The notes under the pieces were generated by a model. That model was given only the letters and a program-made list of their open reading frames with translations. It was not told the DNA's origin and did no database searches. Shown one piece after another: positions 14,427 to 31,882 of a stretch of 64,000 nucleotides of DNA; the first letter of the stretch is position 1; each line of letters starts with the position of its first letter. Made by a program: the position numbers and the translations under genes. Source of the stretch: Sphingobium sp. Z007. GTDB taxonomy: Bacteria; Pseudomonadota; Alphaproteobacteria; Sphingomonadales; Sphingomonadaceae. The DNA is taken from assembly GCF_900013425.1 (NCBI RefSeq), contig NZ_FBXK01000001.1, forward strand, positions 470,001-534,000, in the 5' to 3' direction.

Positions 14427-14571
14427 TCCCGCTTTACTGTCTTTGTTTCCCGCTTTTCTTATGGCGTTATGGGATTGCGATTGGCGGTTCTGCGCGGGCC
14501 ATCCATAATAACCACCAACAATAGGGTAGCGCCGGAGCCGTGAACGGCCCGGCCGGATAATGGAGAGCAGC

Positions 14572-16430: not shown

Positions 16431-16780
16431 CGCAGCGGCCATCATGCTGGTCCTTGATCGCTTGGTTGATGTCTTCCAGCCTATAGGTCGTTATCAGCTT
16501 CTCGAACGGAAACAGCCCTTTTGCATGGAGCGCGATCAGTTCGGGCAGGAACGTCTGCGGGTCGGCATTGCCTTCGGTCACGCCACAGATCGAGATGCCA
16601 AGCGACAGGAGGGTCAGGATGTTGAGGCTGATAGCCGCATCCAGCGCCCTGGGCACGCCGACGATGGCAAGACGCCCAAGAGGGGCAAGAGAGGCCACGC
16701 CCGCATCGATCGCCGGGACCGCGCCCGACGTGTCCAGCACGCAATCGACGCCATTGGGCAACTGCTTGCGCAACTGTTCG
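16405..16780 (-). pseudogene. C-terminal fragment of a zinc-type aryl-alcohol dehydrogenase
   Basis: About 125 codons of an MDR alcohol dehydrogenase remain, from the NAD-binding half (CVLDTSGAVPAI, LGRLAIVGVPR) to the end (GVTEGNADPQTFLPEL, FPFEKLITTYRLEDINQAI, KAVLTMA stop at 16405). This tail matches XylB/aryl-alcohol dehydrogenases, about 370 residues long. The zinc-ligand half is missing: at 16781 the sequence changes abruptly to a second copy of the merR gene. A 377-codon open frame continues antisense through that copy but carries no dehydrogenase homology there. The piece is therefore a recombination remnant. Its 3' end overlaps the intact merR 3' end by 26 bases. Confidence 0.8.
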
Positions 16781-17517
16781 GAAGATGCGCGAACTGGAGG
16801 ACCGGAGTCCATCGGGAGACAATCCGTATCTATCTGCGCGAAGGACTTATTCCCGAACCCGCGCGTCCGCGCAAGACCGTCGCTGATTATGGCGACGAGC
16901 ATGTGCAGGCCATTCTGGCCGTACGGCGACTTCAGGGGGAAAACCGGCTGACGCTGGCGCAGATCAAGGCGATCATCGGCGGAGAGGCAACCGAAAGGCG
17001 AGTCGAGGCCAGCGCCTTTGACCAGTTGGGACAGCTGGTCGCGCATCGCGTGGGCGAAGACGGACCGCCGGTGATGATCGCATCGCTGCTGGACCGCTGG
17101 CCACACGCCGCGCAGGACGCGCGCACGCTCGCCAGCATCGGCATTTTGGACATCATCGAGACGAAGCAGGGCGATGCGCTGAGCATCACCTGCGCGCAAC
17201 TGGTCCGCATCTGGGGCCACATGCGGTGAGCCGGGTTTGACCAGCGACTCAATTACACCCCGGAAATTCTGGGCTTTTACCGTCAGGCTGCCGATTTCGT
17301 CGGGCGATGGGAACCGGCCACTTTCCTGGCGCGCGTGGACGGCCATATCGCCGTGGATGATGCCGCGACCATGGTCGAACATGCGCTGCCGTTGATGCTC
17401 GATTTTTTCGGCCCGCTGCGTCAGCGCGCCTTTATTCCCCATGTCCATTCGATCCGCGCCGGTACGCAAGCCGATCGCCCCGACGACATGGCCATGGCTT
17501 TGCCACCCTTTCCCTGA
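16781..17517 (+). pseudogene. Decayed second copy of the MerR-type regulator
   Basis: From GAAGATGCGCGAACTGGAGG onward this copy tracks the intact regulator at 15687-16430, with roughly 85 percent similar protein sequence over its length. Three things break it. There is no native upstream region because the copy starts abruptly inside dehydrogenase sequence. Five bases are lost near codon 7, shifting the frame before TGVHRETIRIYLREG. In the middle, the AAG of the intact copy (in MRKAGFDQR) is TGA at 17227-17229. Homology continues past the stop through VDGHIAVDDAATMVEHALPL to the end at 17517. The difference level shows an old duplication, not an assembly repeat. Confidence 0.85.
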
Positions 17518-17820
17518 ACGTCCCTGACGGCCGATCATGACTGGCGGCCCTTCCGCCTGGCGGTCGCGGCTTATCGCTGACGGAAAAGCCCGGTGCCGAT
17601 ATAAGCAGCTCTATTCAAACTTTGTGTCATAATTCAGTTTGGAGGACGGTAAACGCGAATTTGGACCCAAAAAAGCGCGGAAAACAGGCGATTTCTACGC
17701 CTGTAAGTCTCAATGGTCCGACCGATATTAGCGATTGACTAATCCCGTCCCGCAGTTACGTAATGGCCATACGCAATACGTATATCGCCGTAAGGCAGCG
17801 TATCAGGAGAGGGTAGTTTC
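17518..17820 (+). promoter_or_regulatory. Promoter region of the P450 gene with operator-like sites
   Basis: This 303-base stretch holds no gene. AATGGTCCGACC at 17712-17723 matches the dyads at 2531 and 11227. TTGACT at 17735-17740 is a possible -35 box shortly after it, which would suit an activator bound just upstream. TACGTATAT at 17777-17785 matches the centre of the merR dyad at 15627. The P450 start at 17821 follows AGGAGAGGG. The remaining bases show nothing further. Confidence 0.5.
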
Positions 17821-19122
17821 ATGGCGACTTCGCTGGATGCCGACGTGCGTCCCATCATCCCCGACGACATAGCCCGGATCGTTATCGCGCCCAAAAGCTA
17901 TACCGACGACGCGACCATTTATGGGGCGTTCAAGTGGCTGCGCGACAATATGCCGCTGGGGATCGCTCAGGTGCCGGGTTACGATCCGATCTGGGTCGTG
18001 ACTAAACATGCTGACATTAAGGAAGTGGAGCGCAACGGCAAGCTGTTCCACAATGCCGATCACAATCCGATTTTGGTCGATCAGGCGTCCGACGCTTTCA
18101 CGCGGGAAATCAATGGCGGGTCAATCCGCATCCTGTCGTCGCTGACCTATATGGACCCGCCCGAACATGCGTCCTACCGCACGCTGACGTCCAACTGGTT
18201 CCTGCCTGGCAAGATCAGCAAGCTGGAGGAACAGATCCGCGTCCTGGCGCGCCAGTCGGTCGACAATCTGCTGAGCTTCGATGGCGAATGTGATTTCGTC
18301 CGCGATTTCGCGCTGCATTATCCGTTGCGCGTCATCATGACGCTGTTCGGCGTGCCGCCGGAAGATGAACCGCGTATGCTCAAGCTGACGCAGGAATTTT
18401 TCGGCGTCCATGATCCCGAAGAACAGCGGCCCGAAATGGCGACCGACCCGGTGGTCGCGGCAAAGCAATGGGCGGCCTCGATCGAGGATTTCTACACTTA
18501 TTTCGACAAGCTGAGCGCCGATCGTCGTGAAAATCCGACCGACGACCTGCTGTCGCTGATCGCCAATTCCCGCATTAACGGCGCGCCGATCCCCCGTAAC
18601 GAGGCAAATGGCTATTATGTCGCGATCGCTACGGCAGGCCACGATACCACGTCGTCGTCCACCGCAGGCGGTTTGCACGGCATGATGCTCTATCCCGAAA
18701 ACTGGGCCAAAGTGAAGGCGGACCCTTCTCTCATCCCCGGCCTGGTGGACGAAGCGATCCGCTGGACCAGCCCTGTCAAGCATTTCATGCGCAACGCGAC
18801 CGCCGATACGCAGGTGCGCGGCATGGGCATTCGCGCGATGGAACGGCTGATGATTTGTTATCCGTCTGGTAACCGGGACGAGGCGGTCTTTGCCGACGCC
18901 GACCGTTTCGACATCACCCGGTCGCCCAATCCGCACATCGCCTTTGGCTTTGGCCCGCATATGTGCCTGGGGCAACATCTGGCCAAGCTGGAGATGCGCG
19001 TCCTGTTCGAGGAACTGCTGCCGCATCTCGAATCGGTCGAGTTGGCGGGCGACCCGCGCATGGTCGAGACCAATTTCGTCGGCGGGTACAAGGCGTTGCC
19101 GATCCGCTTCACCCGAAGCTGA
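17821..19122 (+). CDS. Cytochrome P450, CYP108-like (P450terp family)
   Basis: A 433-residue soluble bacterial P450. The I-helix motif AGHDTTSS is at about 272-279, the ExxR motif is EAIR at 311-314, and the haem loop FGFGPHMCLG places the axial ligand at Cys382. Long stretches match alpha-terpineol hydroxylase CYP108A1 as I remember it: the opening IIPDDIARIVI, the segment YYVAIATAGHDTTSSS, and the end through CLGQHLAKLEM to NFVGGYKALPIRFT. A CYP108 member in Novosphingobium binds aromatic hydrocarbons, so terpenoid or alkyl-aromatic hydroxylation is likely. No 2Fe-2S redoxin or redoxin reductase of the P450 type lies nearby, unlike the terp operon. It is followed by a terminator and an aldehyde dehydrogenase gene. 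Confidence 0.92.
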   Translation: MATSLDADVRPIIPDDIARIVIAPKSYTDDATIYGAFKWLRDNMPLGIAQVPGYDPIWVVTKHADIKEVERNGKLFHNADHNPILVDQASDAFTREINGGSIRILSSLTYMDPPEHASYRTLTSNWFLPGKISKLEEQIRVLARQSVDNLLSFDGECDFVRDFALHYPLRVIMTLFGVPPEDEPRMLKLTQEFFGVHDPEEQRPEMATDPVVAAKQWAASIEDFYTYFDKLSADRRENPTDDLLSLIANSRINGAPIPRNEANGYYVAIATAGHDTTSSSTAGGLHGMMLYPENWAKVKADPSLIPGLVDEAIRWTSPVKHFMRNATADTQVRGMGIRAMERLMICYPSGNRDEAVFADADRFDITRSPNPHIAFGFGPHMCLGQHLAKLEMRVLFEELLPHLESVELAGDPRMVETNFVGGYKALPIRFTRS

Positions 19123-19137
19123 ACCCTCTCCCCCTGG

Positions 19138-19176
19138 GCCGCGCCCGGAAAAGGCGGGCGCGGCTCTTTCTTTTTT
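19138..19176 (+). terminator. Rho-independent terminator after the P450 gene
   Basis: GCCGCGCCCG and CGGGCGCGGC form a perfect 10-bp stem with loop GAAAAGG, followed by TCTTTCTTTTTT. It is the best terminator in the window and separates P450 from the aldehyde dehydrogenase, perhaps giving much more P450 mRNA. Confidence 0.9.
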
Positions 19177-19195
19177 ACGCGCGGAGACTGTTTCC

Positions 19196-20704
19196 ATGAA
19201 TGCACCAACCACCATCGCCGCGGGACTGCATGGCGAGCCGGGATTTGAAGTTCGTCTGCCATCGCAAAAGATGCTGATCGGCGGGGCTTGGGAAGATGCC
19301 GGGGACGGTCGCACCATCGCAGTGGAGGATCCCGCCACGGGCGAGGCTTTCGCGACCGTTCCTGCGGGCACGGCGGCTGATGTGGACCGGGCGGTTACGA
19401 AGGCGCGGGCGGCGTTCGAATCCGCAGCGTGGAGCCGGATGCGTCCGCTCGATCGCGGCAAGATCATCGAGGCGATCGCGCGCAAGATCGAGGATCATGC
19501 GCAGGAACTGGCGCTGCTCGAAAGCTATGACAATGGCAAGGCAGTGCATCATGCGCTGGCCGTGGACGTGCCCGCTGCCGTCGATATTTTTCGCTACATG
19601 GCGGGCTGGGCGTCGAAAATCTATGGCCAGGTAAACCCGATTTCGGGCGATGGCCGTCAATATCACAGCTATTCGGTGCGCGAACCGATCGGCGTCGTTG
19701 GGCAGATCGTGCCGTGGAACTATCCGCTGGCCATGGCCGCGTGGAAGATCGCATCGGCATTGGCGGCAGGGTGCACCATCGTGCTCAAGCCGTCGGAAGT
19801 CACGCCCCTGACCGCGCTGCGTCTTGCCGAACTGGCGCTGGAGGCAGGGCTGCCCGAAGGCGTGCTGAACATCGTCACCGGCTATGGCCATGAAGCGGGG
19901 CAGGCGCTGGTTGAACATCCCGGCATCGACAAGATCGCCTTCACCGGCTCGACCCGCGTGGGCAAGCAGATCGTCCAGACCTGCGCGAAGGATCTCAAGC
20001 GGGTTACGCTCGAACTGGGCGGCAAGTCGCCCTCGCTGATCTTTGCCGACGCGGACCTCGACAAGGCGGCGATCGGTGCGGCGCTGGCCATCTTCTTCAA
20101 CAGCGGTCAGGTATGCCTCGCGGCATCGCGCCTCTATGTCGAACGTTCGGTGTTCGACAAGGTGGTCGACGGCGTGGCCCAGGTCGCCAAGACGTTCAAG
20201 CTGGGCCATGGGCGCGATCCCGACACGATGTTGGGGCCATTGGTGTCCAAGGTGCAACAGGGCCGGGTGCTCGATTATATCGAACAGGGCAAGGCGAGCG
20301 GCGCGGACCTGGTCACCGGCGGCGGCACCGGTGGTCGCGACGGCTATTTCGTCGAGCCGACCATCTTCGCCAATCCCGACGCCGACGCCAGCATCGTGCG
20401 GGAGGAGATTTTCGGCCCGGTGCTGGTCGCCACGCCGTTCGACGATGTCGAGGAAGTGGTCCGTCAAGCCAACGACACCCGTTACGGCCTGGCCGCGAAT
20501 ATCTGGACCCGCGACCTGTCGCGTGCGCACCTGACCGCGCGCAAATTGCAGGCGGGTACGGTGTGGATCAACACCCACGGCATGAACGACCCGTCGGCGC
20601 CCTTTGGCGGCGTCAAGGAATCGGGCTGGGGCCGCGAAGTCGGCGAGGAAGGCGTGCTGCATTATACCGAAACCAAGACGGTCACGGCGCTGCTGGACGA
20701 CTGA
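19196..20704 (+). CDS. NAD(P)-dependent aldehyde dehydrogenase
   Basis: A 502-residue aldehyde dehydrogenase starting at ATG 19196 after GGAG. The upstream open frame is antisense or out of frame to P450 and is not used. IVPWNYPLAM (about 171-180), VTLELGGKSPS with Glu273 and NSGQVCLAA with Cys307 complete the active site; the C-terminus has FGGVKESGWGREVG. It is similar to betaine-aldehyde and phenylacetaldehyde-type enzymes. Placed after the P450 and ahead of alcohol dehydrogenase and kinase genes, it could oxidise an aldehyde made from the P450 product, as TerpB does in the terpineol operon, but this is an analogy. Confidence 0.92.
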   Translation: MNAPTTIAAGLHGEPGFEVRLPSQKMLIGGAWEDAGDGRTIAVEDPATGEAFATVPAGTAADVDRAVTKARAAFESAAWSRMRPLDRGKIIEAIARKIEDHAQELALLESYDNGKAVHHALAVDVPAAVDIFRYMAGWASKIYGQVNPISGDGRQYHSYSVREPIGVVGQIVPWNYPLAMAAWKIASALAAGCTIVLKPSEVTPLTALRLAELALEAGLPEGVLNIVTGYGHEAGQALVEHPGIDKIAFTGSTRVGKQIVQTCAKDLKRVTLELGGKSPSLIFADADLDKAAIGAALAIFFNSGQVCLAASRLYVERSVFDKVVDGVAQVAKTFKLGHGRDPDTMLGPLVSKVQQGRVLDYIEQGKASGADLVTGGGTGGRDGYFVEPTIFANPDADASIVREEIFGPVLVATPFDDVEEVVRQANDTRYGLAANIWTRDLSRAHLTARKLQAGTVWINTHGMNDPSAPFGGVKESGWGREVGEEGVLHYTETKTVTALLDD

Positions 20705-20767: not shown

Positions 20768-23155
20768 ATGAAGACGAATTTTTCACGGCTGATGCGTTCG
20801 GCGGGCGTGGTCGGGCTGGTCGCGGCCAGCCCTGCCTTCGCGCAGGATCAGGCGGCGCCCCAATCGGCCGCCACCGCATCGACACCGCAACCATCGACCG
20901 ACGGTGAAATCATCGTGACCGCCAACAAGCGGTCGGAAAATATCAACAAGGTCGGCCTGTCCATCACAGCGGTATCAGGCGAAGCGCTCGAAAACCGCAA
21001 GGTCACCTCGCTGGAAGATATTGCCAGCGTCGTGCCGGGCCTCGCCTTTGCATCGAGCACCGCCAATACGCCGATCTTCACCTTGCGCGGCGTGGGTTTC
21101 AACGAAAGCTCGCTGGGCGTCTATCCGGCGGTCAGCGTCTATCTCGACCAGACACCGCTGCCTTTCCCGGTAATGGCCAGCCATACCGCTTTCGACCTGG
21201 AACGGGTGGAAGTGCTCAAGGGACCGCAGGGCACGCTGTTCGGCCAGAATTCGACAGGCGGCGCGATCAACTATATCGCCGCCAAGCCAACATCCTCATT
21301 CGAGGCTGGCGGCGACATCAGCTATGGCCGGTTCAACCAGGTGGACGGCAATGTCTTCATCAGTGGACCAATCACGCAAAATCTGCGCTTTCGTGTCGCC
21401 GGAACGGCGCTGCACGCCGACGACTGGCAGCAAAGCTACACCCGCAACGACAAGCTGGGCGAGCAGGAATATTATGCCGGACGCTTCCTCTTGGACTGGA
21501 CGCCTGCCGACACGGTGCGCTTTGCGCTGAACATCAACGGGTGGCGCGACAAGTCCGATCCGCAGGCGCAACAACTGGTGCTCAAATTCGGCCAGATTCC
21601 CGCCTTTGCCAAGCCTGAACTGCTGAGCTATCCGTTCGCGCCCAACAATGCGCGGGCAGCCGATTGGTCGACCGGCACGCTTCGCCCGCGTGCGGATCGC
21701 AAATTCTTCCAGGCGGCGCTGCGCAGCGACATCGACCTGAGCGATAATCTGACGCTGACGTCGCTGACATCCTATGACGATTACAAGCAGGATCAGGTCA
21801 CCGACGGCGACGGCATGAACCTGATCGTGTTCGATCTGGAACGCAATGACGGCTATATTCATTCCTTCAATCAGGAACTGCGTCTGGCCAACGACCAGTC
21901 CGGCACCTTCCGCTGGATATTGGGTGCGAATTATGAAAAGAGCACGACCTTCGAAAATCAGGTTCTGCGCTATATCGACAGCACCAACTTCAATCCCAAT
22001 AACCTGTTCATCAACGCCAGCGGCGTGACCAATAAGCAGAAGATCGAAAATTACGCCTTCTTCGGCAACGCAGAATTCAAGCTGACCGAAGAACTCACGC
22101 TCAAGGGCGCGGCGCGCTATACCAAGAGCCGCAACAACGCGAACATCTGCGGCTATGCGGCGGGCGATGGCAATGTCGCCGACCTGTTCAACCTGCTCGG
22201 ATCGCTGCTGGGCAGCGTGCCCTTCACCCCGATCGGCAACACGGACTGCTATTCGCTGAACGAAAACAACGTGCCCGGCCAGCCCTATGTCAGGACGCTG
22301 GAAGAGGATAATGTCTCGTGGCGCGTTGGCCTGGATTATCAGGTAACCCCGCAGACGCTGGTCTATGCCAACGCATCGCGCGGGTACAAGGCCGGTTCCT
22401 ATCCCAGCCTGGCAGCCGCGACCTATACCGCGCTTTCGCCTGTGACGCAGGAATCGGTCACGGCCTATGAGGCAGGCGTAAAGACGCAACTGTTCGATCG
22501 CATGGTCTCGCTCAACTTCGCGGCTTTCTATTATGATTATCGCGACAAGCAGATCCGCGGCAAGACGCCGGACCCGATCTTCGGTATTCTCGACGTGCTG
22601 GTCAATGTGCCCAAATCGCGCATTCAGGGGGCAGAGGCCGATGTCACCTTCCGCCCGGTCGAAGGGCTGACGATCGCAGCGGCGGGCACCTATCTGGACT
22701 CCAAGGTGAAGCGCTATACGGGCGTAAACGTGATTGGCGTGAACAATGATTTCAACGGCGATCCGTTGCCGTTCACGCCCAAATGGTCGGGTTCGCTGAA
22801 CGTCGATTACAAGGTCGAAATGCCCGATGGCGGCGCGCCCTTCTTCGGCTTCACCATCGCCAGCCGCAGCGCGTCGGATGCAACCCTGGGCGGTCGCCGG
22901 ATCACATTCCCGGCATCGCCCGCGACGATCCTCAAGCCTGGGGTCGATTATATCTACAAGATCAACGGCTATACGACGGTCGATGGTCGCGTCGGCTATG
23001 TGGCGCGCGACGAACGCTGGCGGGTCAGCCTGTGGGCCAAGAATATTTTTAACGCCTATTATTGGACCAACGTCATCCCTGCCAATGACAGTTCCGCCCG
23101 GTTTGCCGGCCGGCCTGCGACCTATGGCGTGACGGTTGGTTTCAACTTCAAATAA
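20768..23155 (+). CDS. TonB-dependent outer-membrane receptor
   Basis: A 795-residue receptor with AGGAGG-like GGAGGGG ahead of ATG 20768. The signal peptide runs to PAFAQD. GEIIVTANKRSENINKVGLSITAV is the N-terminal plug start, and VEVLKGPQGTLFGQNSTGGAINYI is the plug core shared with sphingomonad carbon-source receptors. The barrel ends in TYGVTVGFNFK with the terminal aromatic residue. It probably brings in the hydrophobic compound used by the P450 and downstream enzymes. A strong terminator follows 5 bases after the stop, so the kinase-module genes after it may be expressed at a lower level or from a separate promoter. Confidence 0.92.
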   Translation: MKTNFSRLMRSAGVVGLVAASPAFAQDQAAPQSAATASTPQPSTDGEIIVTANKRSENINKVGLSITAVSGEALENRKVTSLEDIASVVPGLAFASSTANTPIFTLRGVGFNESSLGVYPAVSVYLDQTPLPFPVMASHTAFDLERVEVLKGPQGTLFGQNSTGGAINYIAAKPTSSFEAGGDISYGRFNQVDGNVFISGPITQNLRFRVAGTALHADDWQQSYTRNDKLGEQEYYAGRFLLDWTPADTVRFALNINGWRDKSDPQAQQLVLKFGQIPAFAKPELLSYPFAPNNARAADWSTGTLRPRADRKFFQAALRSDIDLSDNLTLTSLTSYDDYKQDQVTDGDGMNLIVFDLERNDGYIHSFNQELRLANDQSGTFRWILGANYEKSTTFENQVLRYIDSTNFNPNNLFINASGVTNKQKIENYAFFGNAEFKLTEELTLKGAARYTKSRNNANICGYAAGDGNVADLFNLLGSLLGSVPFTPIGNTDCYSLNENNVPGQPYVRTLEEDNVSWRVGLDYQVTPQTLVYANASRGYKAGSYPSLAAATYTALSPVTQESVTAYEAGVKTQLFDRMVSLNFAAFYYDYRDKQIRGKTPDPIFGILDVLVNVPKSRIQGAEADVTFRPVEGLTIAAAGTYLDSKVKRYTGVNVIGVNNDFNGDPLPFTPKWSGSLNVDYKVEMPDGGAPFFGFTIASRSASDATLGGRRITFPASPATILKPGVDYIYKINGYTTVDGRVGYVARDERWRVSLWAKNIFNAYYWTNVIPANDSSARFAGRPATYGVTVGFNFK

Positions 23156-23218: not shown

Positions 23219-24145
23219 ATGGAACTCACCACCGCCTATATGACCGAAAATTGTGAGCGCTATATTCCCAATCCGGCGATCCCAAAGTGGAACCAGAGCT
23301 ATTATTTCAACTTCTATGACCGCAAGGCGAAACTGGGTGCGTTCATTCGCGTCGGCATCATGGAAAATCTGGGCGAAACCAACGGTTTCGCTATCTTCTT
23401 CAAGGACGGAAAGCCGCTGTTCACGCGGGTGAACATGCAGTTGCCCTATACGTCCGACCGGCTGGACCCCGGCCTGGAGGTGGCAGGGGTACGCATGGAG
23501 GCGATCAGGTCGCTCCAGACCTGCCGCATCCGCATCGACCTGGAAGATTTCGGCGCGGATCTGGAATGGGATCTGCGCTTTCCGATGGGCGACAGCATCG
23601 TCCCCAGCACCGAAGGCGACGATGCGATCGCGCGTGAACTGGCCTATATTCACCTGGAAGGCACCTGCAACGTCACCGGCACCGTGCGCCTGCGCAGCGG
23701 AGAGATAATCACGATCGACGATAGCGGTTTCCGCGACGTCAGCTGCGGGCCGCGCAACTGGGCCGGGGTGCAACATTACCGCCTTGCCTGGCCGATTTTC
23801 GACAACGGCATGGCCTGCGTCGCTGTCCACGCCATCACGGAACATGGCCATAGCTATCAAAAAATCCTGCACGACGGAAAACGCTGGCACAATATCGGCA
23901 AGGTCGAGGAAACGATCACGTTCGAAGATGATGATCTGGGCTTTCGCCACGTCCACTGGAAAGTGTGGGACGAGGATGAAAAGCTGTGGGAATTTAACGG
24001 CACGCCGCTATTCCGCTGGCAATTCCCCTTCGACACCTTCGTCATGGTCGAACAGATGATGGAATATAGACTGGTGGACGGGACCATCGGCTATGGCATG
24101 GGCGAGGGCGGGTTCCGCTTTCCCTGGGAAGGGAATGGCAACTAA
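23219..24145 (+). CDS. CrtC/DUF7064-like beta-barrel protein, module copy 1
   Basis: A 308-residue protein without signal peptide. RDVSCGPRNWAGVQHYRLAWPIF (about residues 172-194) fits the conserved RDxSxGPRxWxxxQHY pattern of DUF7064/7065 proteins, which resemble the lipocalin-like CrtC/AttH fold. CrtC hydrates carotenoid double bonds, so a hydratase or binding role for a terpenoid-like ligand is conceivable but unproven. AGGAAAG precedes the ATG. Its stop overlaps the next start as TAATG, so it is tightly coupled to the kinase gene. A paralogue occupies the same position in the second copy of the module at 25883. Similar proteins often sit beside APH-type kinases in sphingomonad and actinobacterial catabolic clusters, to my knowledge. 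Confidence 0.75.
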   Translation: MELTTAYMTENCERYIPNPAIPKWNQSYYFNFYDRKAKLGAFIRVGIMENLGETNGFAIFFKDGKPLFTRVNMQLPYTSDRLDPGLEVAGVRMEAIRSLQTCRIRIDLEDFGADLEWDLRFPMGDSIVPSTEGDDAIARELAYIHLEGTCNVTGTVRLRSGEIITIDDSGFRDVSCGPRNWAGVQHYRLAWPIFDNGMACVAVHAITEHGHSYQKILHDGKRWHNIGKVEETITFEDDDLGFRHVHWKVWDEDEKLWEFNGTPLFRWQFPFDTFVMVEQMMEYRLVDGTIGYGMGEGGFRFPWEGNGN

Positions 24146-25326
24146 TGTCCGACACGCTCGCCGCCCGTCCGGTGCTGGACATCGACATCTGGGACCGCGA
24201 TGACATGGAGCCGCGTGTCCGGGAGATACTCGACCGGACCGTGCGCGACCGTGTGAAGGGACCATATGCGGCCAGGACCGAAGCGCAGGTCGTCGCCATG
24301 CTGGAAAATTATTTCGCGGTAACCGAGGGGCTGGAGGACATCACCATATCCGACGTTGCGCGGATGGCAGGTGGTGCATCGAAAGAGCAATTTGCGTTTC
24401 TGTTGCGGCACAAGGGCGACGAGACGGGCGAAAAGCTGGTACTGCGCATGGACCCGCTCGAGGCGATTTCGCAGACCTGCCGGGGGCGCGAGGCGCAGGT
24501 GCATGTTGCGTTCGCCGACGTCCTGCCGGTCGCATCAGTGCGCAGCGTGGACGCTGATGGCGACATATTGGGCCAGCCTGCCATCATCCTTGGTTTCGTC
24601 GAGGGCGTGACCGAACCGACGCAGGGCACGGGCCATGGCTTTTCCGGTATCGGCACCCGTTATGACGATTGGGCGGCCAAGCTGGCACCGCAATTCATCG
24701 ACGCGCTGGCACAGGTGCACCGGTTCGATTGGCGCACGGTCGACCTGTCCTATTATGCCGCGCCGCAACCCGGCACGCGGCAGGCGGCGATCTGGCAGGT
24801 CAACTGGTGGTCGCAGGTGTGGTGGGACGGCGTGGTACAGCCTGTCGCCATGGTCACCTATGCCGAACGATGGCTACGCGAAAATGCGCCGGTCTGCGAT
24901 CAGCCGGTGATGTGCCACAGCGACCTGCGGCTGGGCAATTTCATGTTCGAGGAACCCAGCGGCAAGTTCACCGCTGTCCTCGACTGGGAACTGGCGCATA
25001 TCGGGGATTTTCATGAAGACATCGCCTGGGCCATCCAGCGCCTGTTCGGCACCTGGACGGACGATGGCATTTTTCTGGTGTGCGGGCTAATCGCGCGGGA
25101 CGAATTTCTGCGCGCCTATGAAGCGGCATCGGGCAACCGGATCGATCCGGTCAAGCTGCGCTATTATGAGGTGCTTAACGCCTACAAGTGCGCGGTGATC
25201 GACCTGGGTCAGGCGATGCGGGCGGCCACCGAAAGCAATAATCACCAGGACATCATCCTGACATGGCTGGGTTCGGCAGGGGCCGTCTTCCTGGAACAAC
25301 TCGTCACGCTCATTCGGGAGGCCTGA
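24145..25326 (+). CDS. APH-family phosphotransferase (ACAD10/11- or LvaA-like kinase), module copy 1
   Basis: A 393-residue protein with the protein-kinase-like APH fold. GGASKEQFAFLL is the nucleotide loop region, LVLRMDP follows where the ATP-binding strand is, CHSDLRLGNFMFEE is the Brenner catalytic motif (HxDxxxxN), and VLDWELAHIGD carries the metal-binding acid. This is the type found fused to acyl-CoA dehydrogenases in ACAD10/11 and as the LvaA kinase of levulinate catabolism, which phosphorylates 4-hydroxyacyl-CoA. Antibiotic resistance is unlikely in this context. It overlaps the preceding gene by one base and is followed 3 bp later by a small LvaB-like partner. A close paralogue lies at 26830. 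Confidence 0.85.
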   Translation: MSDTLAARPVLDIDIWDRDDMEPRVREILDRTVRDRVKGPYAARTEAQVVAMLENYFAVTEGLEDITISDVARMAGGASKEQFAFLLRHKGDETGEKLVLRMDPLEAISQTCRGREAQVHVAFADVLPVASVRSVDADGDILGQPAIILGFVEGVTEPTQGTGHGFSGIGTRYDDWAAKLAPQFIDALAQVHRFDWRTVDLSYYAAPQPGTRQAAIWQVNWWSQVWWDGVVQPVAMVTYAERWLRENAPVCDQPVMCHSDLRLGNFMFEEPSGKFTAVLDWELAHIGDFHEDIAWAIQRLFGTWTDDGIFLVCGLIARDEFLRAYEAASGNRIDPVKLRYYEVLNAYKCAVIDLGQAMRAATESNNHQDIILTWLGSAGAVFLEQLVTLIREA

Positions 25327-25329
25327 TCC

Positions 25330-25842
25330 ATGCTGCCCAATATTGACCTGCGCATTGCCAATATGACGAAGGCGTTGGAACAGGTGATCCTACCTGCGCT
25401 GCCACGCGAACAAAGGCTGGCGCGGGATCAGGCGATGCTGGTCGTCGGCCAGTTGCGCATGATGAGCCAGCAATGGAAATCGGCGCTGCGCTATGAAGCG
25501 CTGTCGCTGGACGAATTGATCGTGCTGGCCCGCGCGCTGGCAGGCGAAGCGCCCGCCTCGATCGGCGAACCGCTCGAAGCGGCGCTGGCTGTGGCGCAGG
25601 ATTGCGACCGCACCAGCATCACCGCGCTGGAGCAGGCAAGCATCGCCCTGGGTCATGCGGTGGATATAGCGATATTGGGCGGGGCGGATCATCTGCCCCT
25701 TTCACCCGCTGCGACCGAAGCAGTGCTCGATTATGGGTTGCGCCACGCCCGGCGCGAACGGACCTGGTTCAAGGCGAACCAGATGGATCCCGACCAGGGC
25801 GACCTGCCCGACATAGCGGCGATGCTGGCCGCTGCCGACTGA
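25330..25842 (+). CDS. Small kinase-partner protein (LvaB/DUF6285-like), module copy 1
   Basis: A 170-residue, mostly helical acidic protein opening MLPNIDLRIANMTKALEQVILPAL. No catalytic motif is visible. It lies 3 bp after the kinase gene, and its paralogue at 28006 stands in the same place, so the two-gene pairing is conserved inside this window. In the Pseudomonas putida levulinate pathway the LvaA kinase needs a small neighbour protein, LvaB. I place this protein in the same class, probably the family called DUF6285, by gene order and size rather than by a search. The last third contains RRERTWFKANQMDPD, also conserved in the paralogue (TRERTWFAATGLDPD). Confidence 0.75.
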   Translation: MLPNIDLRIANMTKALEQVILPALPREQRLARDQAMLVVGQLRMMSQQWKSALRYEALSLDELIVLARALAGEAPASIGEPLEAALAVAQDCDRTSITALEQASIALGHAVDIAILGGADHLPLSPAATEAVLDYGLRHARRERTWFKANQMDPDQGDLPDIAAMLAAAD

Positions 25843-25882
25843 CGATAGCGATAATGACAGGACATGGAGGGAGTTGCTTGCG

Positions 25883-26815
25883 ATGCCGAATAATATGACT
25901 CAGAGTTTTGCGGATTTCCCCGTCAAGAATGCCTATCGGCACAAGCTGGCCGAAGATGGCCGGGAATCGGCCACGCACCAGTTCGTGCTGCCCCAATATG
26001 GCATCGCCGGTTTCTATTATCCAACGGTACGCGCCAACGGCCATGCTAAGGGGCGGCTGCACCTGTTTGGACCCGGCCTGCCCGCGCCGATCGAGGAAGA
26101 TGTCGAGCAGATGGTGTCGGACGACATGGATTTCGACGACTGGCGCTTTGGCCCGTTGCTGATGGCCGTGCGCGAACCGTTCAAGACGATCGACCTGGGC
26201 TGGGTCAGCGATCGCATCCAGTTCGAGGGGCAATGGACCGCCATGCACCCGCCCTACGCCTTCAGTTCCCATCCCAAGGGCAATCCGCCCTATTATGGCG
26301 ATGATCGCACCGAGCAGCATGGCATCATCAAGGGCAATCTGCGCGTCGATGGGCGCGACTATCCGCTCAAGGATTTCATGATCCGCGACCATAGCTGGGG
26401 ACCGCGCGTCTGGGGTCTGAACCAGCATTATAAATGGTTCCACGCGACCACGGCGAGCATGTCGGTGCATTTTTTCGAAATGATGTCGTTCGGCAAGGTC
26501 GAAACGCGCGGATATTTGTTCAAGGACGGTGTCATGCGGCATGTCCAGGACATTGATTATGCGATCGATTATGACGCCGACATGATGCACGATCGTTTTC
26601 GGGTGACCGTGACTGATACCGACGGACGTTCGGTATTCGTCGATTGCCAGGCATTCGCCAAATATCAGTTGGACCTCGACCCGGTAGTGCTGCTGAACGA
26701 ATCCGTGGTGACCGCGACGATCGATGGCGAGCAAGGCACCGGCTGGTGCGAATTCTGCTGGAACCGCGACTATCTGAAATTCGCCAAACCCTATGTCGAG
26801 CGTTTCGCCTGGTGA
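25883..26815 (+). CDS. CrtC/DUF7064-like beta-barrel protein, module copy 2
   Basis: A 310-residue paralogue of the protein at 23219. The start ATG at 25883 is nine bases after GGAGGGAG; the TTG at 25874 is too close to that site. The signature here is RDHSWGPRVWGLNQHYKWFH (about 173-192). The two paralogues share this centre and overall length but are quite different elsewhere, suggesting separate ligands or partners rather than a recent duplication. The stop overlaps an in-frame ATG of the next gene as TGATG. As for copy 1, a hydratase, isomerase or carrier function for a hydrophobic substrate is possible; no experiment is known to me. Confidence 0.75.
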   Translation: MPNNMTQSFADFPVKNAYRHKLAEDGRESATHQFVLPQYGIAGFYYPTVRANGHAKGRLHLFGPGLPAPIEEDVEQMVSDDMDFDDWRFGPLLMAVREPFKTIDLGWVSDRIQFEGQWTAMHPPYAFSSHPKGNPPYYGDDRTEQHGIIKGNLRVDGRDYPLKDFMIRDHSWGPRVWGLNQHYKWFHATTASMSVHFFEMMSFGKVETRGYLFKDGVMRHVQDIDYAIDYDADMMHDRFRVTVTDTDGRSVFVDCQAFAKYQLDLDPVVLLNESVVTATIDGEQGTGWCEFCWNRDYLKFAKPYVERFAW

Positions 26816-26829
26816 TGGAGGAGGCCGCC

Positions 26830-28002
26830 ATGGAAACCCCGCGCGTGCGCGACAGCGACGTGGACATATGGGATCGTTCCGAGATGGAGTCGCGCATCCG
26901 GCACATATTGGAGCGCACCGTCCGCTTGCGCGCCACTGGTCCCTATCGCCCAAAGTCCGATGCGCAGGTTACGGCGATGCTTACCGGCTTCTTTGCGGCC
27001 AAGGGGTTGGACGAGATCGCGATCAGCGACGTCGAGCGTATGTCGGGCGGCGCTTCGAAGGAACAGTTTGCCTTCACCCTGCACCACAGGGCCAGCGCGC
27101 ATCCTGAACGCCTGGTGCTGCGCATGGACCCGCTGGAGGCGATCGCCCAGACCTGCCGGGGGCGGGAGGGTGAGATCCAGCGGATCATGGGCCACTATAT
27201 GCCGGTCGCGCCGGTGCGCTGGTTCGATGCCGATGGCGATCTGCTGGGGCAGCCCGCCGTCATTCTGGAATTTGTGCGCGGGGTGACGCAGCCCAGCGAA
27301 GGCGGCGCGGCGGGCGTGTCCGGCATGGGCGGGCGTCTGGGCAGTTTGATCGACCGGCTGGCACCACAATATATCGACGCACTGGCCAAGACGCACCGTT
27401 TCGACTGGTCGCGCGCGTATCTGCGCTATTTCGATGCACCGCGCGGGGGCAGCAATCAGGCGGCGATCTGGCAGGTGAACTGGTGGTCGCAGGTGTGGTG
27501 GGATTGCCTGGTCGAGCCGGTGCCGGTGGTGACGCTGGCCGAACGCTGGCTGCGCGAACATGCGCCCACGTGCGACGCGCCGATGCTGGTCCATGGCGAT
27601 TTGCGCATGGGCAATTTCATGTTCGAGGAACCCAGCGGCCAGTTCACCGCTGTCCTGGACTGGGAACTCGCCCATATCGGCGACTTCCATGAAGACATTG
27701 CCTGGACCATGCAGAAGCTGTTTGGCGCCTGGGGCGATGATGGCCGCTTTCTGGTCAGCGGCCTGCTGACGCGCGAAGATTTCATCGCCCGGTATCAGGC
27801 TGCGTCGGGCAACCGGATAGATCCGGTCCGGCTACATTATTATGAAGTGCTCAACGCCTATAAATGCGCGGTCATGGACCTAGGGCAGGCGATGCGCGCA
27901 TCTGTCGCCAGCAATAATCATCAGGAAGTCGTGCTGACCTGGCTGGGGTCTGCCGGGGCCGTCTTCCTGAACGACATCATACAGCTGATACGGAGGGCTT
28001 GA
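26830..28002 (+). CDS. APH-family phosphotransferase (LvaA-like kinase), module copy 2
   Basis: A 390-residue paralogue of the kinase at 24145. The start at 26830 is preceded by GGAGGAGG at five bases; the in-frame ATG at 26815, overlapping the upstream stop, is an alternative. GGASKEQFAFTL, VHGDLRMGNFMFEE (Brenner HxDxxxxN) and VLDWELAHIGDFHEDIAW are all intact, and the C-terminal half (RIDPVRLHYYEVLNAYKCAV) is almost the same as copy 1. The two kinases are similar over their full length, both with complete active sites, so both are likely functional. They probably phosphorylate a hydroxyl group on a small molecule or CoA thioester. Confidence 0.85.
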   Translation: METPRVRDSDVDIWDRSEMESRIRHILERTVRLRATGPYRPKSDAQVTAMLTGFFAAKGLDEIAISDVERMSGGASKEQFAFTLHHRASAHPERLVLRMDPLEAIAQTCRGREGEIQRIMGHYMPVAPVRWFDADGDLLGQPAVILEFVRGVTQPSEGGAAGVSGMGGRLGSLIDRLAPQYIDALAKTHRFDWSRAYLRYFDAPRGGSNQAAIWQVNWWSQVWWDCLVEPVPVVTLAERWLREHAPTCDAPMLVHGDLRMGNFMFEEPSGQFTAVLDWELAHIGDFHEDIAWTMQKLFGAWGDDGRFLVSGLLTREDFIARYQAASGNRIDPVRLHYYEVLNAYKCAVMDLGQAMRASVASNNHQEVVLTWLGSAGAVFLNDIIQLIRRA

Positions 28003-28005
28003 GCG

Positions 28006-28512
28006 ATGTTACCCAGTATCGATCTGCGCATCGCCAATGTCATAAAGGCGCTGGAGCAGGTCATCCTGCCCGCGCTGACCCCGCGCGAACGACTCGCCAG
28101 GGACCAGATCAACCTGTGCATTGGCCATCTGCGGATGATCGGCGAACAATGGCGCTGGGCCGCCGCGTTCGAGAGCGGCTCGTTCCACGCTATGATAGTG
28201 CTGGCCAAGGCGATGCAGCCGTCGGTCGATCCTTTCTACGCCGATGAACTGGCGGCGGCGATCATGTCGGCCGACGCGATAGAGGGGGATGATCTGGCCG
28301 CCGTGGAACATGGCATCGTGGCGCTGGGCGGTTTGATCGACCGCATCATCCTGGGGGAGGATGGCCAGATCCCTCTGGCCCCTGAACTATGGGACGCGGT
28401 GCTGGCCTATGGCGAGACGCAGGCGACGCGCGAGCGGACTTGGTTCGCCGCGACCGGGCTTGACCCCGACCGGCGCGAATTGCCCGGCATTGCGGAGATG
28501 ATGACCCGATGA
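28006..28512 (+). CDS. Small kinase-partner protein (LvaB/DUF6285-like), module copy 2
   Basis: A 168-residue paralogue of the protein at 25330, starting MLPSIDLRIANVIKALEQVIL, 3 bp after the second kinase gene. The N-terminal 50 residues and the C-terminal RERTWF region are strongly alike in the two copies, while the middle differs. This suggests the ends contact a conserved surface, perhaps the kinase. The stop overlaps the next start as ATGA, coupling it to the MmgE/PrpD gene. No active-site motif can be named. Confidence 0.75.
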   Translation: MLPSIDLRIANVIKALEQVILPALTPRERLARDQINLCIGHLRMIGEQWRWAAAFESGSFHAMIVLAKAMQPSVDPFYADELAAAIMSADAIEGDDLAAVEHGIVALGGLIDRIILGEDGQIPLAPELWDAVLAYGETQATRERTWFAATGLDPDRRELPGIAEMMTR

Positions 28513-29936
28513 AGCATGAAAATCCGGTACTGCCGCAGGATGACCCCGCAGGGCCGTTGGCGCAGATGGTGGCGCATACACGTTACGAGGATATTCCCGC
28601 CGACGTCATCGATCTGGCTAAGCGCGCGATCCTGGACACGTTGGCCGTCACTATCGCAGGATCCGGCTGGGAAGTCGCGCCGGCCATCGCCGATCAGGTG
28701 GCGGAATGGGGCGGGGCGCCGCAGGCGCGGGTGCTGGTGCATGGCCATGCCGTGCCAGCGCCCATGGCCGCGTTCGCCAATGGGGTGATGGCCCGCGCCA
28801 TCGACATGGGCGATGTCCATGAAACCGGCGGCCATGTCACCGAATGGAATGTCCCGGCGATGCTGTCGGTCCTGGGTATCGCGCCGGGGCCGGTCAGCGG
28901 GCGCGAATTTCTGGCCGCTTATGTGACCGGCGCGGAAGTGGGCGTACGCGCGAGCGCAGCGCTGAACCTTGTTCGCTATCATACGAATTGGGGGATGCCG
29001 GGCGAATGGAACGGCCCGCTATGCGCTGCGGCATCGGTCTCGCGCATCCTGGGCATGGATGCGGACGAGACATGGAACGCGATGGGCATGGCCTATACCG
29101 TCCATGGCATGTCGGAATATAATAAATATTCCGAAGGCACGCAGATGGCGCGGGTCCAGCATAGTTTCGCTGGCGATACTGCGGTGAAGGCCGCGTTGCT
29201 GACGCGGCGTGGTGTCACCGCCCCACGCGGGATATTTCAGGGCGTACCGAGCGGCATATTGCGCCATATCGCGTGGGACGATGTTCGGCCCGAACTGCTG
29301 ACCGACGGGCTGGGCACGCGCTGGCAACTGGCCGAGGGGCTTTCGATGAAACCCTATTCGGCGTGCAAGTTCACGCACAGCTTCATCGCCAGCACTGCGA
29401 CGATCATGCAGCGCGAGGCGCTGGACTGGCGCGACATCGACCGGATCGATTGTATCGGCAGCAACAGTTCGCGCATGACGTTCGAACCTGCCGACGCAAA
29501 ATGGAACCCGCGCACCGTGGCGCAGGCCATGTTCAGCGCGCCCTATACGATTGCGACGGCAGCCATGACCGGCGGCTTTTTCCTTCAGGATCTGCACGCC
29601 GACCTGATGATGGACGATGACCGCCGCGCGTTGATGCAGCGGGTGCATATCCTGTGTGATCCCGATCATGTCGATCAGTTCGAAGGGTTCAGTGTCGCCA
29701 TCACCATGCAGGATGGTCGCCATTTCAAGCATGTGACCCCCTATGTGAAGGGGCATAGCCGCAACCCGATGACGTGGGACGACCTAGCCGACAAGCTGGC
29801 CCGCTGCGCGCCGTTCGCGGCGATAGCCTTACCGCAGGCCAGCCTCGACCGGCTGGTCGCGCTGTGCCGGGACATGGAAACGGTCGATGACATGACCGTG
29901 CTGCTCGATTGCCTGACCCCTTCTCATCCCGCCTGA
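28509..29936 (+). CDS. MmgE/PrpD family protein
   Basis: A 475-residue member of the MmgE/PrpD family, close to the usual length. The N-terminal AKRAILDTLAVTIAGSGW, then ANGVMARAIDMGDVHE, the helical segment ending AASVSRILGMDADETWNAMGMA and MKPYSACKFTHSFIAS are typical. Family members include 2-methylcitrate dehydratase, cis-aconitate decarboxylase and iminodisuccinate epimerase, so the reaction is likely dehydration, decarboxylation or epimerisation of a carboxylic acid, or a CoA ester of one. It overlaps the small partner gene by four bases and lies 20 bp ahead of the alcohol dehydrogenase, so it belongs to the same transcription unit as the kinase modules. Confidence 0.85.
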   Translation: MKHENPVLPQDDPAGPLAQMVAHTRYEDIPADVIDLAKRAILDTLAVTIAGSGWEVAPAIADQVAEWGGAPQARVLVHGHAVPAPMAAFANGVMARAIDMGDVHETGGHVTEWNVPAMLSVLGIAPGPVSGREFLAAYVTGAEVGVRASAALNLVRYHTNWGMPGEWNGPLCAAASVSRILGMDADETWNAMGMAYTVHGMSEYNKYSEGTQMARVQHSFAGDTAVKAALLTRRGVTAPRGIFQGVPSGILRHIAWDDVRPELLTDGLGTRWQLAEGLSMKPYSACKFTHSFIASTATIMQREALDWRDIDRIDCIGSNSSRMTFEPADAKWNPRTVAQAMFSAPYTIATAAMTGGFFLQDLHADLMMDDDRRALMQRVHILCDPDHVDQFEGFSVAITMQDGRHFKHVTPYVKGHSRNPMTWDDLADKLARCAPFAAIALPQASLDRLVALCRDMETVDDMTVLLDCLTPSHPA

Positions 29937-29956
29937 GCTTTCCCAAGGAGACTATA

Positions 29957-31051
29957 ATGAAGGCCGCCATTCTCAACTCGCTCGACGGTACGTTCCAGAT
30001 CGAGAATATCGACATCGACGCCCCGCGCGGACGCGAGGTTCTGGTCGAGGTCAAGGCGTCGGGCCTATGTCATTCCGACCTGCATTTCGCCGAACAGGAT
30101 TTTGGCGTGCCGTTGCCCGCCGTGCTGGGGCATGAACTGGCCGGCATAGTCCTGGCGATCGGCCCCGAAGTGCGCGAATTTGCGGTGGGCGATCATGTAG
30201 TGGGGTCGCTCATTCAGTTTTGCGGCCATTGCCGCGCCTGCATCGCCGGCAAGACCTATCAGTGCACCCATCCCGAAGAAACGCTGCGCGACGACCCCGA
30301 CCATGCCCACCGGCTGACCCGCAATGGCGAGGGCGTGGCCCAGGTGTTTGGCACGGGTGCCTTTGCCGAACGCGCGCTGGTGCATGAAAATCAGCTGGCC
30401 ATCGTGCCCAAGGAACTGCCCTTTGCCCAGGCGTCCTTGCTGGGGTGCGGTACGATCACCGGTGCTGGCGCGGCGATCAACACCGCGTCGGTCCGTCCGG
30501 GCGATACGGTTGCGGTCATCGGCATCGGCGGCGTCGGGCTGAACGTCATTTCGGGTGCGAAACTTTCTGGGGCCGCGCGGATAGTGGCTATCGACATGCA
30601 GCCAAAAAAGGAGGAACTGGCGCGCCGGTTCGGGGCCACGGATTTCATCGATGCTGCGGCGGGCGACAGCGTCGCCGCGCTCCAGGCGCTGATCCCCGGC
30701 GGCGTGGACCATGCGTTCGAAGTGGTCGGCATCAAGGCGACGTCCGAACAGGCGATCAAGATGGTTCGCAAGGGCGGCGGCGCCTATCTGATCGGGGTCC
30801 ATGCGCCGACCAGCACAATCGACGTCAATGTGACGATCGACCTGCTGACCAATCAGGTCGATCTGCGCGGCGTTTATATGGGGTCATCCAATATCAAGCA
30901 TGACATACCGATGTATGCCCAGCTTTATCTGGAGGGCAAACTGAACCTGGACGACCTGATTTCGCGCGAGATCAACTTGGCCGACATTAATGAGGCCTAT
31001 AAGGAACTCAAGGGCGGCTCTATCGCGCGCAGCGTCATCACCTCCTTCTGA
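29957..31051 (+). CDS. Zinc-dependent alcohol dehydrogenase (MDR family)
   Basis: A 364-residue zinc alcohol dehydrogenase with AAGGAG before ATG 29957. Catalytic zinc ligands are Cys38 and His59 (LGHELAG), the structural zinc site is FCGHCRACIAGKTYQC (Cys89, 92, 95, 103), and the NAD-binding loop is IGIGGVGLNV. It resembles class III-like and Rv-type NDMA-dependent alcohol dehydrogenases that oxidise alcohols of catabolic pathways. As the last gene of the block after P450, aldehyde dehydrogenase and kinases, it could oxidise a P450-made alcohol for the aldehyde dehydrogenase at 19196. A 9-bp hairpin follows. Confidence 0.9.
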   Translation: MKAAILNSLDGTFQIENIDIDAPRGREVLVEVKASGLCHSDLHFAEQDFGVPLPAVLGHELAGIVLAIGPEVREFAVGDHVVGSLIQFCGHCRACIAGKTYQCTHPEETLRDDPDHAHRLTRNGEGVAQVFGTGAFAERALVHENQLAIVPKELPFAQASLLGCGTITGAGAAINTASVRPGDTVAVIGIGGVGLNVISGAKLSGAARIVAIDMQPKKEELARRFGATDFIDAAAGDSVAALQALIPGGVDHAFEVVGIKATSEQAIKMVRKGGGAYLIGVHAPTSTIDVNVTIDLLTNQVDLRGVYMGSSNIKHDIPMYAQLYLEGKLNLDDLISREINLADINEAYKELKGGSIARSVITSF

Positions 31052-31108: not shown

Positions 31109-31882
31109 TCAGTCGGCGATGGCCGGTTTCGTCATCGGTTCGGTCAGCGTCATAACGATATGGTCGATGTCGGCTGAATTGAATCCATGATGTGCCAGAT
31201 AGCCTGCGGCCGACCCGAACTGATCGTCCAGCGTTGCGAACAGGCTATCGAGATAGGCCAGATCGGTCCCCAGCATCACCCGTCGACATGCGTCCGGCAA
31301 AGCAGCGTAGAGATCCAGCTTCGCATCGGACAGCATATTCTTGAAATGGGTGTCGCCATCGAGCAGTGCGCTGCTGCGCAGATAATCGCCCATGATGTCC
31401 GCGCGCGCGACGCCCAGCAGGTCGAGCAGCAGCGCTGATGCCGCCCCGGTGCGATCCTTGCCTGCCGAACAATGGATCAGCACGGGCAGGCTGTCGTCCG
31501 CGATGGCGTGAAACATTGCGACCAGTTCGATGGCATAGGCGTCCAGCATATATCCGTAGAAGGCACCGAACGCCTGTGCCCATGCCTGGCCGGTCCTTTC
31601 TGTCTGCGCGAAGATGCGGTTGAAGATGAAATCGGTGTCGGGCTTTGGCGAGAGATAGTCGGCGGGCATCCGCAGCGCCGCCGGTGTCGGCTGGGCCGCA
31701 CGCTCCCGTTCCGACCGCAGGTCGATCGTCGCCTTGATACCCAGCCACCGCACTCTTTCCGCGTCAGCGGCGGACAGGCGCGACAATTGGCTGGACCGAT
31801 AGACTCGGCCGTGCCGGACCTTGCGTTGTCCATGGGCGTCATATCCCCCAATATCTCGGAAATTCGGTACGCTTGCCAACAT
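31109..31882 (-). CDS. Tyrosine/serine protein phosphatase-like protein
   Basis: A 257-residue protein with the signature HCSAGKDRTG (Cys138 as nucleophile, CX5R), preceded by NFRDIGGYDAHGQRKVRHGRVYRSSQL, the opening of the PF13350 (LipA/MptpB-like) phosphatase family. Enzymes of this family remove phosphate from tyrosine, serine or phosphoinositides; several bacterial members act on small phosphorylated molecules. It points toward the kinase block and ends convergently with the alcohol dehydrogenase gene. Whether it acts on products of the APH-type kinases is speculation. The start ATG at 31882 has a GGAGAGGA site upstream. Confidence 0.88.
   Translation of the reverse strand: MLASVPNFRDIGGYDAHGQRKVRHGRVYRSSQLSRLSAADAERVRWLGIKATIDLRSERERAAQPTPAALRMPADYLSPKPDTDFIFNRIFAQTERTGQAWAQAFGAFYGYMLDAYAIELVAMFHAIADDSLPVLIHCSAGKDRTGAASALLLDLLGVARADIMGDYLRSSALLDGDTHFKNMLSDAKLDLYAALPDACRRVMLGTDLAYLDSLFATLDDQFGSAAGYLAHHGFNSADIDHIVMTLTEPMTKPAIAD

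Follow-up and report, generated by a model that had tools for sequence, protein, structure and literature searches.

A way of removing a stubborn tertiary hydroxyl group is known from the anaerobic breakdown of cholesterol: Sterolibacterium first phosphorylates a tertiary C25 alcohol and then eliminates the phosphate to give an alkene (PMC7411048, PMC8449060). The enzymes of Sterolibacterium denitrificans are 25-hydroxy steroid kinase (25-HSK), an active monomer, and 25-phosphosteroid lyase (25-PSL); in 2021, when the lyase gene was not yet known, the vicinity of the kinase gene showed no candidate for it (PMC8449060). A comparable strategy is described, in the parts of the literature consulted, for LvaA/LvaB/LvaC of Pseudomonas putida and for ACAD10/ACAD11, where a kinase of the same family phosphorylates a hydroxyl group before elimination and a small protein is associated with the kinase. 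Here we compare these systems with a locus of Sphingobium sp. Z007, contained in a 64,000-nucleotide stretch (contig NZ_FBXK01000001.1, positions 470,001 to 534,000; hereafter the window). At 23219-28512 of the window, six consecutive plus-strand open reading frames, all open at the coordinates given below, form two A-B-C sets, in which A is a DUF7064/DUF7065 protein, B an APH-family kinase and C a protein of about 170 aa with no Pfam match. Each set is probably an ATP-dependent dehydratase in which a kinase and a phosphate lyase together act on a tertiary alcohol, with p-menthane-type substrates favoured.

In the first set, A1 (23219-24145, 308 aa) carries both DUF7065 and DUF7064, has the motif RDVSCGPRNW at residues 172-181 and is the proposed phosphate lyase; it is followed by the APH-family kinase B1 (24145-25326, 393 aa; HSDLRLGN and LDWE) and by C1 (25330-25842, 170 aa), a kinase-linked protein of an undescribed family that is predicted to be helical. 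The second set repeats this order with the DUF7064 protein A2 (25883-26815, 310 aa, alternative start TTG at 25874; RDHSWGPRVW at residues 168-177), the proposed lyase of that set, the APH-family kinase B2 (26815-28002; 390 aa from ATG 26830, or starting at 26815; HGDLRMGN and LDWE) and the C1 paralogue C2 (28006-28512, 168 aa). The first-pass annotation, made from the sequence alone, had described a duplicated three-gene module with one gene order and tight coupling, and the coordinates and junctions bear it out. A1 and B1 overlap by one base (TAATG); A2 and B2 do so as well (TGATG, start 26815), unless B2 starts at 26830 behind a GGAGG. The gaps between B1 and C1 and between B2 and C2 are both 3 bp. 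The kinases and the small proteins are paralogues, as had been stated (66% identity over 382 aa for B1 and B2, 48% over 166 aa for C1 and C2). The view that the first proteins share only the RDxSxGPRxW centre was an understatement, as A1 and A2 align over 149 aa with 25% identity (E 3e-5) and both pass the thresholds for the two Pfam families.

The A proteins change how the module is to be read. Against curated cut-offs of 24.7 bits for DUF7064 and 27.0 bits for DUF7065, A1 scored 44.3 and 39.4 bits and A2 86.6 and 27.2 bits, the last barely above its threshold; the scan took in A1 and A2. A profile of the A family found a single significant relative in the PDB, 25-PSL (9fzn, E 2.2e-7), and a PDB search with the A1 sequence alone gave no match. 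The AlphaFold2 model of A1 had a mean predicted local distance difference test score (pLDDT) of 85.1 and a predicted template modelling score (pTM) of 0.87. When it was compared with the PDB by Foldseek, the five best matches were all 25-phosphosteroid lyase (best E 7.9e-16), with an E value roughly six orders of magnitude lower than for the hydratase-type matches. The same comparison shows that the A proteins have a two-barrel, lipocalin-like fold, as AttH and kievitone hydratase do, so that the earlier description as lipocalin-like stands. CrtC also has the AttH/kievitone hydratase-type fold. The fold is shared with the lipocalin-fold pericyclases as well, but AttH, kievitone hydratase and the pericyclases differ from the A proteins in substrate and reaction, and A1 is closer to 25-PSL by Foldseek. 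By both profile and Foldseek, the nearest solved relative of A is a phosphate-eliminating enzyme rather than the hydratase or ligand carrier first suggested. That A hydrates an isoprenoid double bond in the manner of CrtC or kievitone hydratase, while B phosphorylates the alcohol for trapping or export, agrees with the shared fold but is unlikely given that 25-PSL is the better match by both methods and that each A in the module is coupled to a kinase; on the Foldseek ranking it was rejected as first choice.

All 47 aligned A-family sequences have the Asp of the RDxSWG motif (D173 in A1, D169 in A2). Entry 9g4c is a variant with Asn at this position, which suggests that the Asp is catalytic. 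The solved 25-PSL entries date from a PDB release of January 2026, and a literature search found no paper on these structures. In a survey of the class, 22 DUF7064 places were located in 14 of 190 genomes. A kinase lay within about 1.5 kb in 12 of them, two being those of the window itself, and none did in the other 10, so a DUF7064 protein need not in every case have a kinase partner nearby. The genes with no kinase match in the examined flanks are at L110, L112, L114, L116, L117, L120, L121, L126, L129 and L131. A third A homologue, which is divergent, is also encoded in the Sphingobium genome, with a further kinase gene behind it (positions 7286-9147 of L132, a stretch at 314000-330000 of contig C1); the two are surrounded by short-chain dehydrogenase/reductase and CoA-ligase genes, with no C or DUF6285 match in that stretch.

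Both kinases are intact, as originally noted. B1 and B2 keep the HxDxxxGN and LDWE motifs and score 80.0 and 81.7 bits against Pfam APH (PF01636; cut-off 23.2 bits), and neither carries an acyl-CoA dehydrogenase domain by Pfam. In the PDB, the relatives of B1 by sequence are 3ats (E 8.3e-13), 9o56 (1e-12), ACAD11 (6.9e-8), 3dxp (9.3e-8) and 9fsg (6.9e-6). The last of these and 9ft5 are titled 25-hydroxy steroid kinase, matched by B1 at E of about 7e-6; B1 thus scores better against each of the other four than against 25-HSK, and is not closer to 25-HSK than to other kinases. By sequence, B falls in a broad group of kinases, some of which phosphorylate alcohols that are to undergo elimination. 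B may work like 25-HSK, but its sequence does not make it 25-HSK, of which it is a more distant relative.

The APH fold and the annotation as phosphotransferase family could also be taken to mean drug-resistance or detoxification enzymes. This is very improbable. Every NCBIfam kinase model listed for B scored far under its cut-off (at best 39.3 against 205 bits), and the surroundings are those of a degradation-type cluster, with genes for lyase homologues, a cytochrome P450, an aldehyde dehydrogenase and a TonB receptor. On the NCBIfam scores, B as resistance kinases was rejected.

Among the kinase relatives, 3ats is the entry that we take to be Rv3168 of Mycobacterium tuberculosis. This same-family kinase stands beside Rv3169, whose NCBIfam family (Rv3169_fam) is matched weakly by A1 (48.8 bits) and A2 (49.8 bits), far under the cut-off of 150. 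The available part of PMC5340868 describes Rv3168 and Rv3169 as adjacent and in an operon, and that part mentions no small C gene. By description only, the pair resembles the B-A pair at a distance, and its function is perhaps worth reconsidering.

Each set of the window resembles the Sterolibacterium pair of 25-HSK and 25-PSL in combining a kinase of the APH type with a lyase that shares the fold and the RDxSxG motif of 25-PSL, and the chemistry, from tertiary alcohol through phosphate ester to alkene, is assumed to be the same. Unlike in Sterolibacterium, the lyase and kinase genes of the window are operon-coupled, occur twice in tandem, are accompanied by C and lie near a P450terp-like P450.

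Searches with C found no Pfam or NCBIfam family at E<=1, and PDB sequence searches gave no lead. C1 has 52 homologues at E<=1e-3. Among 48 C genes in the fetched stretches, a kinase gene is directly upstream in 43 and directly downstream in 3; the remaining two are at the ends of contigs, one of these having a kinase tail, and a kinase therefore adjoins 46 of the 48. A homologues occur within 3 kb of 35 of these 48 genes. The C proteins make up an undescribed family linked to kinases. The AlphaFold model of B1 joined to C1 (pLDDT 52.1, pTM 0.33) is too poor to speak for or against an interface; its C part shows helices at this low confidence, and Foldseek with the model gave no match at E<=1e-3.

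The small proteins had at first been called LvaB-like, with a comparison to DUF6285 and LvaB suggested; LvaB is here taken as DUF6285 on the word of the first-pass annotation. DUF6285 is indeed bound to kinases. A kinase match was present in the same stretch of about 3 kb at all 33 DUF6285 loci (30 of 48 places from one search and 3 of 4 from another) and in one frame with DUF6285 at five. One-frame fusions of an APH-type kinase and DUF6285 were seen at L046, L049, L051, L055 and L064, with a sixth at L088, and such fusions provide independent evidence that DUF6285 is a kinase-partner domain. Lyase-kinase-DUF6285 triads occur in three genomes (G475, G364, G497) and the order kinase-DUF6285-lyase in another (G020). 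Since DUF6285 is likewise kinase-bound and found in triads with the lyase, C holds the operon slot of DUF6285. As for homology between them, comparison by hhalign of 62 C with 33 DUF6285 sequences gave E 0.0018 with a probability of 14.6%, and the 34 closest C sequences gave E 0.12 and 0.5%. A third alignment gave E 0.0019; its real score of 23.9 was reached by 1 of 300 column shuffles, and the reversed, kinase and lyase controls scored 11-13. The profile-profile signal between C and DUF6285 is marginal. A PDB search with a DUF6285 protein gave no match below E 0.04, and no DUF6285 match was found in the Sphingobium genome at E<=1e-3. C as LvaB/DUF6285 was rejected on the lack of a Pfam match at E<=1 and of a DUF6285 match in the genome.

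These results bear on a pathway of the LvaA/LvaB (ACAD10/11) type for the module, in which the kinases phosphorylate 4-hydroxyacyl-CoAs, an acyl-CoA dehydrogenase eliminates the phosphate, and C is LvaB. The relation of B to the ACAD11 kinase domain, the kinase association of DUF6285 and the report, in a passage of PMC6692424 citing Rand et al., that LvaB is a 12-kDa protein binding LvaA all agree with it. Yet the eight genes at 23219-31051 include no acyl-CoA dehydrogenase, C is not DUF6285 by Pfam, and each set contains a phosphate-lyase homologue, to which the elimination is assigned here; unlike ACAD10/ACAD11, the window kinases are not fused to an acyl-CoA dehydrogenase. The nearest such gene checked by Pfam is at 1337-2476. 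We consider this pathway unlikely. What survives of the earlier proposal is its kind of chemistry, phosphorylation of a hydroxyl for elimination in a probable terpenoid-type breakdown, and not the hydroxyacyl-CoA substrate.

The first-pass annotation would have been refuted had no other genome shared the unit; the genome-neighbourhood survey showed that the unit is conserved. A scan of GTDB genomes with a C profile yielded 11 named loci. Six other genomes (L096, which is from Sphingobium lactosutens DS20, L097, L098, L099, L100 and L102) have the double set in full, with its gene order unchanged and with a MmgE/PrpD-family gene and an alcohol dehydrogenase gene behind it, and its retention in order with the same two following genes indicates that the double set is not due to chance. 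In the window, the MmgE/PrpD-family gene (28509-29936, plus strand; PF03972 148.9 bits, PF19305 87.9 bits) overlaps C2 by ATGA, and the Zn-dependent alcohol dehydrogenase gene (29957-31051, plus strand; Pfam and NCBIfam scans) comes next. The two genes follow the module in L094-L100, L102, L104 and L133. In L094, set 2 is broken and no C2 was found, and in L095, B1 is in two pieces, possibly by sequencing error; PrpD and alcohol dehydrogenase are intact in both. In L101, B1-C1 is present but no A was detected, and the contig of L103 is 6 kb long. A single set of the A2 type, along with PrpD, alcohol dehydrogenase, aldehyde dehydrogenase, MerR and P450 genes, is found in Novosphingobium rosa (L104).

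Plasmids carry related groups. Plasmid pISP1 of Sphingomonas sp. MM-1 has a single A-B-C-PrpD-alcohol dehydrogenase set and a second, divergent A gene, and pSA1 of N. resinovorum has two kinase-C-lyase groups. On a plasmid of Rhodococcus ruber, which belongs to another phylum, a weakly scoring A homologue (36 bits) is found together with a kinase, C and one more phosphotransferase; divergent from this group is a P450 gene whose product shares 52% identity with that of the window, accompanied by ferredoxin, reductase, aldehyde dehydrogenase and alcohol dehydrogenase genes. C matches were present in 12 of 298 genomes of the family, its own included (twelve candidates scored per genome), and in 1 of 349 in a phylum-wide search, again its own, where ten candidates were scored per genome and absence is therefore weak evidence. 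Outside the family, C was seen in another family of the class (L122) and in Rhodococcus. Three genomes have five to seven C genes each, mostly paired with kinases (L065-L068 in G147; L069-L072 in G130; L073-L074 and L091-L093 in G211), which represents an expansion of the module in particular lineages.

A1 and A2 belong to deeply separated lineages, whereas the two kinases, B1 and B2, are close to each other. Single triads are found elsewhere with A1-type (L067, L077) or A2-type lyases (L104, L080). Beside the A1-type lyase of L067 stands a kinase whose grouping, though weak, is with B2 rather than B1, and the kinase of L077, also beside an A1-type lyase, lies far off. These placements speak against a simple picture and mean that lyases and kinases have been reshuffled between sets. 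Relatives have a broken kinase in one set or the other, which favours separate substrates or redundancy over a single obligate machine of six proteins.

Clues to the substrate come from the genes upstream. A plus-strand cytochrome P450 gene (17821-19122) encodes a protein closest to P450terp (CYP108A1; 1cpt, E 3.3e-167), with 248 of 425 residues identical (58.4%), a figure from which no CYP family is assigned. An aldehyde dehydrogenase gene (18890-20704, plus strand; Pfam domain from about 19290) comes next. The P450terp operon is similar in these two respects, which are the ones compared. The presence of a P450terp-like P450 and an aldehyde dehydrogenase upstream favours a p-menthane-type terpenoid. 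Alpha-terpineol is a tertiary alcohol. P450terp is described, in the sources consulted, as converting it to 7-hydroxyterpineol, and the available part of PMC7794910 presents alpha-terpineol as seemingly a dead end in some strains that transform limonene. Granted the dehydration model, the odds that p-menthane-type tertiary alcohols are the substrate are roughly even.

The same kinase-lyase chemistry may instead serve other substrates, such as steroid or diterpenoid side chains or branched alcohols, a variant that overlaps the reading preferred here and that we hold to be possible though the less likely. The solved kinase and lyase act on steroids by their PDB titles, CYP125-type P450s are also relatives of the window P450, and five to seven copies in some C-bearing genomes imply several substrates. 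Set against this are the 58% identity of the nearby P450 to P450terp and its conservation at 82-99% within the fetched stretch in seven named genomes. Across the 14 named loci, the P450 is at least 52% identical in nine and is absent from the fetched stretch of L095, L096, L103, L133 and L135.

Further genes complete the cluster. A Rieske oxygenase of the VanA type (14560-15615, plus strand, Pfam) is also found in L096, L098, L099 and L100, and a MerR-family regulator (15687-16430, plus strand, Pfam), possibly that of the cluster, has counterparts in L098, L099, L100 and L104. Behind the intact MerR gene, 16354-17538 contains a partial second MerR copy on the plus strand and an overlapping minus-strand remnant of a Zn-dependent alcohol dehydrogenase gene, and has the look of a recombination scar; the P450 gene of L100 is preceded by a MerR gene and by an alcohol dehydrogenase gene that is divergent. 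A TonB-dependent receptor gene (20768-23155, plus strand, Pfam) is directly upstream of the module. On the other side, a Y_phosphatase3-family phosphatase gene (31109-31882, minus strand; PF13350), also near the module in L075, L076, L096, L100 and L133, could recycle stray phosphate esters; the roles of the PrpD protein, the alcohol dehydrogenase and the phosphatase are guesses. A fragment of a Mutator-family transposase (PF00872, 32786-33103) just downstream suggests that the right border of the module was rearranged.

In the mechanism that we propose for the kinase-lyase sets, B, with C as a helper subunit, would transfer the gamma-phosphate of ATP to the tertiary hydroxyl, and A would then eliminate the phosphate to leave an alkene, the Asp of RDxSxGPR taking part in catalysis. 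The favoured substrates are terpenoids of the p-menthane type that carry a C8-type tertiary hydroxyl, namely alpha-terpineol or the products of its oxidation at position 7, and the two sets would handle two different substrates, isomers or steps. The module lies in a degradation cluster with the P450terp-like P450, the aldehyde and alcohol dehydrogenases and the MmgE/PrpD protein. The announcement of Sphingobium yanoikuyae A-TP reports two monoterpene clusters of about 30 kb and names no kinase or lyase genes (PMC13348398). Literature searches on a terpineol kinase-lyase route or on DUF7064, DUF7065 or DUF6285 gave no account of this module among the matches listed.

A broader proposal is tentative, and we would sooner doubt than assert it as a whole. 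ATP-dependent dehydration of tertiary alcohols, rather than being peculiar to anaerobic sterol degraders, might be a widespread, horizontally shared module of aerobic terpenoid breakdown, built from the lyase, the kinase and one of two small kinase-partner families; C would be a new obligate kinase subunit that corresponds to DUF6285 and fits the kinase for hydrophobic alcohols, and the tandem, next to an enzyme of the P450terp type, would carry out two dehydrations that are either successive or specific for isomers, opening alpha-terpineol-type alcohols to ring degradation. The analysis offers a testable function for DUF7064/DUF7065 proteins where they are linked to kinases, and for a family of small proteins that had no annotation. 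If the proposed function is correct, the kinase-plus-lyase dehydration known from steroids would extend to other chemistry, and it suggests how bacteria could handle tertiary terpene alcohols.

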